Positions 13,063-24,072 of a DNA stretch of 64,000 bases are shown here, piece after piece. The notes under the pieces are model-generated. The model was not told the origin of the DNA. It ran no database searches and worked only from the letters and a program-made list of their open reading frames with translations. The translations under genes were made by a program, and so were the position numbers. Numbering within the stretch: position 1 is the first letter of the stretch; every line of letters begins with the position of its first letter. The DNA lies in NCBI RefSeq assembly GCF_000348785.1, contig NC_020520.1, positions 2,418,001-2,482,000 of the forward strand, written 5' to 3'. The stretch comes from Ilumatobacter coccineus YM16-304. GTDB lineage: Bacteria > Actinomycetota > Acidimicrobiia > Acidimicrobiales > Ilumatobacteraceae.

Positions 13063-13119
13063 GCCCGATCTTCTGATTTCTGGTTGTTGCCGGAGGTGCG
13101 CCCCCGTACGCTTCTGCAA

Positions 13120-14316
13120 GTGAGAAAGATTCTCAATATCAGTACGACCCTGCTCGCCTCCACCCTCGGGCTCGGCGCTGTGGCAGCGTGCGGCTCCGAC
13201 GCCGCGACCGGAGACAGCGACGCGTTCTCGATCGTCGTCACGACGTCGATCCACGGTGACATCGTTCGGTCCGCGCTCGGCGACGCTGTGCCCGACGCGA
13301 TCACGATCGATGTCGTCATGCCGGCCGGGGCCGACCCGCACGACTTCTCTGCGTCGGCGAAGCAAGCCGAGCTGATGGAGAACGCCGGCCTGCTCGTGAC
13401 GAACGGTCTCGACCTCGAAGCCGGTCTCGATGGCATCATCGACGCCGTCGCCGACACCGGTACGCCGGTGTTCGCCTTCTCCGATCACCTCGACGTGTTG
13501 AGCACGAGCGACGAGGATCACGCGGACGAGGATCACGCGGACGAGGACCACGCTGACGAGGATCACGCGGACGAGGATCACGCGGACGAGGATCACGCGG
13601 ACGAGGATCACGCGGACGAGGATCACGCGGACGAGGACCACGCGGACGAGGACCACGCGGACGAGGACCACGAAGATCACGCGGACGAGGATCACGCGGA
13701 CGAGGATCACGACGACGAGGACCACGACGACGAGGACCACGACGACGAGGACCACGACGACCATGACGGTCACGATCACGGTGGGGTCGACCCTCACCTC
13801 TGGACCGACCCGGCCGGGCTGATCCCCGTGCTCGAGGCGCTCCGGGCCGAACTGACCACGGCTGGCGTCGACAGCGCCGACATCGACGAATCGCTCGACG
13901 CCTACATCGCCAGGCTCGAGACCCTCGACGCCGAGATCGAGACGATTCTCGCCCCGATCCCCGACGACCAGCGCGTGCTCGTCACCAACCACGACGCGTT
14001 CGGCTACTTCGCCAACCGGTACGGATTCGAGGTCATCGGCACCGTGATCCCGTCGCTCACGACCAATGCCGAAGTCTCGCCGGCCGCACTCGACGACCTC
14101 GCCGAACTGATGCGAGACCGATCGGTCACGGCCGTGTTCGCCGAGAACACCGAATCCGATCAGTTGGCGTCGGCGCTCGCCGATGAAGTGGGCGGCGGTG
14201 TCCAGGTCGTCGAACTCTTCTCCGGATCACTCGGACCGAGCGGGTCGGGTGCCGAGGACTACATTTCGATGATGACCACCAACGCCGAACTGATCGCTGA
14301 GGCCCTGGCGCCGTGA
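13120..14316 (+). CDS. znuA: Zinc ABC transporter substrate-binding lipoprotein ZnuA with a long DEDH repeat
   Basis: A 398-residue cluster A-I solute-binding lipoprotein. A signal peptide ends in lipobox VAAC with Cys24. Zinc-site candidates are His in TTSIHGD, His in GADPHDF, His in NHDAFGYFANRYGF and the acidic residue in FAENTESD. The flexible His/Asp loop, usually 10-30 residues, is greatly enlarged: residues ~131-222 are almost only D, E, H and A, with 16 DEDH units. Such loops are thought to gather zinc or to sense its abundance. The start is GTG 13120, because the signal peptide begins there; a Zur-like operator overlaps it. znuB overlaps the end by 4 nt. Confidence 0.9.
   Translation: MRKILNISTTLLASTLGLGAVAACGSDAATGDSDAFSIVVTTSIHGDIVRSALGDAVPDAITIDVVMPAGADPHDFSASAKQAELMENAGLLVTNGLDLEAGLDGIIDAVADTGTPVFAFSDHLDVLSTSDEDHADEDHADEDHADEDHADEDHADEDHADEDHADEDHADEDHADEDHADEDHEDHADEDHADEDHDDEDHDDEDHDDEDHDDHDGHDHGGVDPHLWTDPAGLIPVLEALRAELTTAGVDSADIDESLDAYIARLETLDAEIETILAPIPDDQRVLVTNHDAFGYFANRYGFEVIGTVIPSLTTNAEVSPAALDDLAELMRDRSVTAVFAENTESDQLASALADEVGGGVQVVELFSGSLGPSGSGAEDYISMMTTNAELIAEALAP
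13121..13135 (+). promoter_or_regulatory. Zur/Fur-type operator overlapping the znuA start codon
   Basis: TGAGAAAGATTCTCA is a 6-3-6 inverted repeat with perfect arms. It resembles the actinobacterial Zur pattern TGARAAxGATTYTCA as I remember it. It begins at the second base of the GTG start, so repressor binding would block initiation directly. Confidence 0.65.
13510..13755 (+). repeat. 15-bp coding minisatellite inside znuA (DEDH repeat)
   Basis: Sixteen units encode (A/D)DEDH. They are in tandem except for one 9-bp partial unit at 13672-13680. Units differ mainly at synonymous sites (GAT/GAC) and by an A-to-D change in the last three, which indicates step-wise slippage expansion. All units keep the reading frame. 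Confidence 0.95.
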
Positions 14317-22922: not shown

Positions 22923-23972
22923 TCAGCGGAGCGTGACGCCGGCGCCCGCGGTGCCGGGTGCTGACGTCGTGCCGATGACCGCGGCGGTGTGTCCGCTCGA
23001 CGCGAGTTCGGCGAGGATGCCCTCGGTCTCCGACGGATCGACGCCGAACACGAGACCACCGGAGGTCTGCGCATCGGCGATCAACAGTTGAGCGAGCTCG
23101 TCGTGGTCACCGGCGTCGAGCAGTTCGGAGCCCCACAGCAGGTTGCGACGGCTGCCGCCCGGCATGATGCCGTTGGCGGCGTGGGTCGTGGCCCCGGGAA
23201 GGAACGGGATCGACTCGAACACGATCTCGCTGCGCACGTCGGATTCGAGCGACATGCGACCGAGATGGCCGAGCAGCCCGAAGCCGGTCACGTCGGTACA
23301 ACCGGTGACCCCGGCAGCGGAGGCCAGGCGTGCACCGATGTCGTTGAGTCGGGTCATCGACGCCACAGCACCGGCCGCTTCGTCGTCGGTGGCGACACCG
23401 GCCTTGATCGCCGTGGTGAGCACGCCGATACCGAGCGGCTTGGTGAGAAGGAGGTCCTGCCCCGGCTTCAGGCCGGCGTTGGTGAGGATGCGATCGGGAT
23501 GCACCTCGCCCGTGACCGACATGCCGTACTTCGGCTCGGGATCGTCGATGGTGTGCCCGCCGACGATGACGAATCCAGCCGCGGTGGCGATGTCTTGTCC
23601 GCCGGCCAACACCTCGCCGAGGAGCTCGGTCGAGAGCGCGTCGGAGTTCCAGCCCACCAGGTTGAGCGCGAAGAGCGGGCGCGCACCCATGGCGTAGATG
23701 TCGGACACGCTGTTGGCTGCGGCCACTCGGCCCCAGGTGCGCGAGTCGTCGACCACCGGTGTGATGAAGTCGGCGGTGGAGACGAGTGCTCGATCGTCGT
23801 CGAGCTTCCACACCGCGGCGTCGTCGCCGGTGTCGGGGCCGACGAGGAGCTCGTCGGGATGTTCGGATTGCAGGTGACGCACGACGTGCGCCAGCTCGCC
23901 CGGGGCGAGCTTGCAGCCTCAACCAGCTCCGTGGCTGAACTGCGTCAATCGTGCGATCTCACTTCCGCTCAT
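22923..23972 (-). CDS. selD: Selenide, water dikinase SelD containing selenocysteine (in-frame UGA)
   Basis: SelD makes selenophosphate from selenide and ATP for selenocysteine and selenouridine synthesis. Reading from ATG 23972 the frame meets a TGA at 23919-23921 (codon 18) and then continues open to 22923, for 349 residues. The context HGAG-U-GCKLAPGEL is the universal SelD active-site motif, normally GxG(C/U)GCK, so the TGA stands at the catalytic Cys/Sec position. A perfect ribosome-binding site GGAGGTGA (23977-23984) precedes the ATG, and a stem-loop follows the TGA. Starting at GTG 23882 instead would remove the catalytic residue and the Lys. The later ATP-binding pattern GPDTGDDAAVW is intact. 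Confidence 0.93.
23889..23921 (-). promoter_or_regulatory. Candidate bacterial SECIS element in selD
   Basis: Directly after the UGA (8 nt later) the mRNA can form GCTCGCC-CCG-GGCGAGC, a perfect 7-bp stem with a 3-nt loop (23894-23910), extended by weaker outer pairs. The position fits bacterial SECIS elements, which lie just 3' of the UGA and bind SelB. Confidence 0.6.
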
Positions 23973-24072
23973 CGTGTCACCTCCATTCGTCGTCTCGGCT
24001 GCTGCGACGACCGACAAGGTATCGGCTGCACAGCGCAGGCCTCGCCCCATCGGTCGCTCGTGTGGAGTCTGG

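Follow-up and report, generated by a model that had tools for sequence, protein, structure and literature searches.

A selD gene of Ilumatobacter coccineus with an in-frame UGA at its catalytic codon, very probably decoded as selenocysteine

The window analysed here, a 64,000-nucleotide stretch of Ilumatobacter coccineus YM16-304 (contig NC_020520.1, positions 2,418,001 to 2,482,000), carries on its reverse strand a selD gene (22923..23972) for a selenide water dikinase of 349 amino acids, with a putative selenocysteine at position 18, as assigned from the reading frame, profile matches and alignments. The frame starts at ATG 23972, downstream of a Shine-Dalgarno-like GGAGGTG (23978..23984, reverse strand), and codon 18 is a TGA (23919..23921, reverse strand), the frame being otherwise open to the stop codon at 22925-22923. 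The residues around codon 18 read LTQFSHGAG-U-GCKLAPGELAHVV and comprise the active-site motif expected of a SelD protein, HGAG-U-GCK, in which the catalytic Cys/Sec position is followed by G-C-K. When read through, the product matches the NCBIfam selD model TIGR00476 over residues 8-315, on both flanks of the TGA (375.3 bits, cut-off 125), as well as PRK00943 (365.1 bits, cut-off 299), and contains the Pfam AIRS and AIRS_C domains. A SelD-like protein of another kind, such as a fusion or a thiL-type protein, was considered and rejected, since the selD equivalog cut-off was reached and those of other families, bar a second selD model, were not. The product is also homologous by sequence to the solved SelD 3u0o, which we take to be the E. 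coli protein (E 2.7e-80, over residues 7-339). In that alignment, made with C in place of U in the query, the TGA column corresponds to the first Cys of HGAGCGCK, so that the two proteins differ in having, respectively, a TGA that presumably encodes selenocysteine and a Cys at the catalytic position. The original prediction, made from the sequence alone, had placed the TGA exactly at the catalytic site of a SelD frame preceded by a ribosome-binding site; direct reading of the sequence, the profile matches on both sides and the 3u0o alignment bear out the former, and GGAGGTG the latter. Passages of PMC13188914 describe selenocysteine at this active-site position of SelD as catalytic. Neither neighbour of selD is a selenium gene, the upstream one on the same strand encoding a carboxypeptidase Taq (M32) and the one on the opposite strand an acyl-ACP thioesterase-like protein.

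To examine the codon at the catalytic position in relatives, we compiled 110 SelD loci, made up of the window's own, 29 from genomes of the same class and 80 retained from 549 confirmed sites in a contig collection. The aligned codon was TGA in 89 of these loci (the window's own included), TGT in 12 and TGC in 9, with no other codon present, which exceeds what chance would give, and the N-terminal SelD segment could be aligned in all 110. The in-frame UGA therefore aligns with the Cys of homologues (89 TGA against 21 TGT or TGC), the pattern by which selenoprotein genes are recognised. Within the class, 226 of 296 genomes surveyed had a SelD match, and the best 149 of these 226 comprised 108 genomes with one TGA inside SelD and 41 with none. 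On a tree of 107 SelD proteins, inferred with the Sec/Cys column masked, the two residues required eight label changes, five of them forced by well-supported branches, against a mean of 19.5 changes when the labels were shuffled on the same tree. Lone Cys rows (e.g. L033, L080 and L114) sit among Sec rows. Changes between Sec and Cys are described for bacterial selenoproteins in passages of PMC1794560, which also include SelD in the families that sister species have lost.

Two adjacent hairpins follow the UGA. The 60 nucleotides starting at the UGA fold into both at -27.7 kcal/mol, an energy reached by 3 of 200 dinucleotide shuffles; compared with 1,000 synonymous recodings, the fold of this segment has a z-score of -1.89, with 2.9% of recodings as low. 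The mean z-score against synonymous recodings was -1.28 for the 89 Sec sequences and -0.28 for the 21 Cys sequences. The first hairpin (23894..23910, reverse strand) has a 7-bp stem and a CCG loop, begins 8 nt after the TGA and is partly conserved. The second (23876..23892, reverse strand) has a 7-bp stem, or 8 bp with the flanking T-A pair, and a GUC loop (23885-23883) located 33 nt from the UGA. We compared both with the bSECIS model that PMC13188914 sets out in a figure legend, with a loop of 3-9 nt that has a G among its first two positions, a stem of 4-16 bp, a spacing of 16-37 nt and an energy of -7.5 kcal/mol or lower. The second hairpin agrees with this model in its loop, its spacing of 33 and its energy (-8.7 kcal/mol for 7 bp, -10.3 kcal/mol for 8 bp). 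The first has an acceptable energy (-11.6 kcal/mol) but lies outside the model, because its loop has no G in the first two positions and its spacing of 15 nt is below 16. The 7-bp stem-loop that the original prediction had pointed to 8 nt after the UGA thus exists, but it is the next hairpin, and not this one, that fits the bSECIS model and, on sequence grounds, is likely to be the SECIS. Searches with Rfam returned no SECIS family at gathering score in the window, nor any up to an E-value of 5 around selD.

Conservation of the second hairpin was assessed on 85 distinct 60-nt Sec sequences, obtained from the 89 TGA loci, and on the 21 Cys sequences. A hairpin fitting the bSECIS model was found at a spacing of 32-34 in 74 of the 85 Sec sequences and in none of the Cys sequences, and anywhere within 16-37 in 77 and in one, respectively, leaving 11 Sec sequences without it at the narrower spacing and 8 over the wider range. 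Since the Cys sequences are, on average, less closely related, part of this contrast between Sec and Cys sequences may reflect kinship, a weakness of which the synonymous-recoding control is free: over 20 rounds of recoding of the Sec set, a fitting hairpin appeared at 32-34 in a mean of 9.85 of 85 sequences (maximum 14) and anywhere in the range in a mean of 18.9. Of the 85 Sec sequences, 82 can form at least five of the seven pairs of the second hairpin, against 4 of the 21 Cys sequences, and no Sec sequence departs from G37 and T38 in the loop. Across these sequences 92.9% of cells are paired, with 64 two-sided changes, and the covariation score of 0.301 was matched by none of 500 shuffles (mean 0.100), versions of the hairpin slid along the alignment scoring 0.024-0.112; on two stricter counts, of pairs with a two-sided change and of further pair types, 24 and 12 of the 500 shuffles did as well. 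The first hairpin retains at least five of its seven pairs in 76 of the 85 Sec sequences and in 8 of the 21 Cys sequences; 84.7% of its cells are paired and its covariation is 0.268 (shuffles 0.171, none of 500 as high), but 127 and 176 of the 500 shuffles did as well on the same two stricter counts. It is conceivable, though rather doubtful, that the recoding element is a tandem of both, with the GUC-loop bSECIS preceded by a partly conserved, covarying UGA-proximal hairpin; two stacked modules, and not one long stem, would then set the distance from the UGA to the SelB-binding loop.

These observations bear on whether the UGA is a stop codon, with translation starting at GTG 23882. An open reading frame of 319 amino acids does begin at this codon (22923..23882, reverse strand), past the active site, as the original prediction had said of the start that a standard gene caller would choose, and a caller that heeds the stop may well pick it. 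It is an unlikely start, however: its product, a SelD devoid of the N-terminal loop, would have no catalytic residue, the N-terminal segment left out is alignable in all 110 loci, and the conserved hairpin at 23892-23876 has the GTG itself in its 3' arm. We therefore regard this reading as very improbable, and the start at ATG 23972 and the active site described here as the likely ones for a gene at risk of truncation by stop-aware callers. Even less probable is a sequencing error or a recent nonsense mutation, in which the true codon would encode Cys or the gene would be dead. TGA is one base away from TGC and TGT, and Cys occupies the position in 21 of 110 loci, but the same codon is TGA in the other 89 (the window's own among them), from many assemblies, the frame is intact on both sides, and the bSECIS hairpin, at a spacing of 32-34, is retained by most Sec sequences and absent from all the Cys ones.

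From the decoding of UGA as selenocysteine, the original prediction had expected selA, selB and a tRNA-Sec with a UCA anticodon elsewhere in the genome, naming the absence of all selenocysteine-insertion genes as evidence against it. A search of the Ilumatobacter genome, a single contig of 4,830,181 bp, found all three, with both protein families over their cut-offs. SelB scores 275.1 bits (curated cut-off 242.25), aligning to positions 2-346 only of the 581 of the family model and having a C-terminal winged-helix domain (SelB-wing_3), and SelA, whose gene adjoins selB, scores 413.2 bits (cut-off 267.9). The tRNA-Sec maps to 403342-403433 of the contig with 66.5 bits (gathering score 47, next match in the genome 43), and its anticodon is UCA (tca in ARAGORN). 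Neither ARAGORN nor Rfam located a tRNA-Sec within the 4,095-base selA-selB locus; on a circular contig, the tRNA gene would lie about 0.9 Mb from the adjacent selA and selB, and selD is at yet another place. Among 14 known genomes used as controls, matches over cut-off were obtained for selB in two and for selA in one, and tRNA-Sec reached its gathering score in five. Together with selD, the genome thus holds the complete set of genes by which a bacterial selenoprotein host is recognised. The selenouridine synthase family has no match in the genome, and the SelD profile has one, with no second SelD found.

The genome search also revealed a molybdopterin oxidoreductase match (3455857-3457143 of the contig) with one TGA inside, in the context SCNRT-U-HAPSV and followed by 553 open codons; the matches to the other five members of this family in the genome are free of internal stops. 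This context resembles the one around Sec in the formate dehydrogenase of E. coli, so that the TGA stands at the usual Sec site, and the formate dehydrogenase-type gene is likely a second selenoprotein gene of the genome. Having formed no part of the original prediction, it adds support for selenocysteine decoding. That the UGA is read through with some other amino acid, as described for UGA readthrough of an SPS gene of Hymenoptera in passages of PMC4561486, is extremely improbable: besides selA, selB and tRNA-Sec, the genome has another selenoprotein gene with a TGA, and all 110 loci carry TGA or a Cys codon in this column.

Taken as a whole, the evidence argues very strongly that this gene encodes a SelD with selenocysteine as catalytic residue 18, its UGA being decoded by means of SelB and the GUC-loop hairpin; selenocysteine insertion, the binding of SelB to the hairpin and catalysis are steps that we infer. 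According to this proposal, SelB carrying Sec-tRNA-Sec would bind the second hairpin, with its GUC loop 33 nt past the UGA, and the ribosome would read the UGA as selenocysteine because of that binding. SelA would in turn charge the tRNA with selenium from selenophosphate made by SelD itself. With a single SelD match in the genome, synthesis of SelD should then need SelD, in a self-sustaining loop.

In the literature, selenocysteine-containing SelD ranks second in size among prokaryotic selenoprotein families. Passages of PMC4561486 report Sec in 19% of the SelD genes of a reference set, always at the same position and with Cys in the rest, the 2006 tables of PMC1794560 list Sec-SelD in organisms then filed as Actinobacteria, and PMC2398784 names SelD as one of the selenoproteins most abundant in marine samples. 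The premise that some bacterial SelD proteins use Sec at this site accordingly agrees with passages of PMC1794560, PMC4561486 and PMC13188914. The Sec-SelD and SPS proteins described there share with the Ilumatobacter gene the family, the position of Sec and a downstream hairpin following the bSECIS model; the difference lies in the host lineage alone, which those passages do not name, and is not one of kind. This particular Sec-SelD was not found in the main texts searched: the main text of PMC5029168 contains neither Ilumatobacter nor a word beginning Acidimicrob-, and that of the genome paper (PMC3910706) no word starting with seleno. The gene is thus an additional member of a well-known kind of selenoprotein. 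It brings to the family a well-supported SelD of the Sec type from the class to which Ilumatobacter belongs, together with a corrected choice of the likely SECIS hairpin, and leaves the understanding of selenocysteine insertion unchanged.

In the best 149 of the 226 matching class genomes, SelB was over cut-off (taken as a best E-value of roughly 1e-71 or lower) in 89 of the 108 with Sec-SelD and in 38 of the 41 with Cys-SelD, and its use to discriminate between the two was rejected for lack of separation. Three Cys-SelD genomes had no SelB over cut-off, and tRNA-Sec was over gathering score in one of them. The 19 TGA genomes without SelB over cut-off comprised 13 of a family with genomes of about 1 Mb (f29) and six of other families, tRNA-Sec being over gathering score in four of these six and below it in two. 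Among the matches listed, f29 has at least 13 genomes with TGA in SelD; tRNA-Sec was over gathering score in the six examined, and the eight examined for molybdopterin oxidoreductase each had a single match and no TGA. In four f29 genomes (G005, G037, G089 and G124, of which G037 and G089 are among the 13 without SelB over cut-off) a match of 558-566 amino acids covers the greater part of the SelB model, with a score of 195-223 bits (cut-off 242). A shorter SelB-profile match in G005 scores above the SelB-like one and is presumably an ordinary elongation factor. Passages of PMC1794560 state that Sec users without FdhA have Sec-SelD, and the pattern of f29, with Sec-SelD and a TGA-free molybdopterin oxidoreductase, fits this statement. 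Two further genomes with Sec-SelD, G039 (6 matches) and G263 (3), likewise show no TGA in any molybdopterin oxidoreductase match.

A distant Cys-SelD with the motif SCGGCAAKW was present in all 15 family or order relatives chosen for their weak SelD match (L162-L176). It is a SelD homologue, 38-42% identical to the Ilumatobacter protein, and differs from it in having Cys and a different active-site loop in all 15 loci, in place of HGAG-U-GCK. In one genus (g2), genome G153 has Sec-SelD and G002 the distant Cys-SelD, with SelB over cut-off in both. The occurrence of both types in the same genus suggests that one may have replaced the other.

A scan of the window for other read-through TGA codons by third-position G+C yielded 25 candidates. 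Since the TGA of selD escaped it, the scan lacks sensitivity and little can be drawn from its result; on visual inspection, some candidates resemble gene ends ahead of the next start or shadows of opposite-strand genes. Elsewhere in the window, a gene for a zinc/manganese ABC transporter substrate-binding protein (13084-14316, forward strand) contains about 17 copies of a 15-base unit (13510-13756), which encode a long His/Asp/Glu-rich repeat (DEDHA). The repeat is probably a metal-binding loop, and its length seems unusual.
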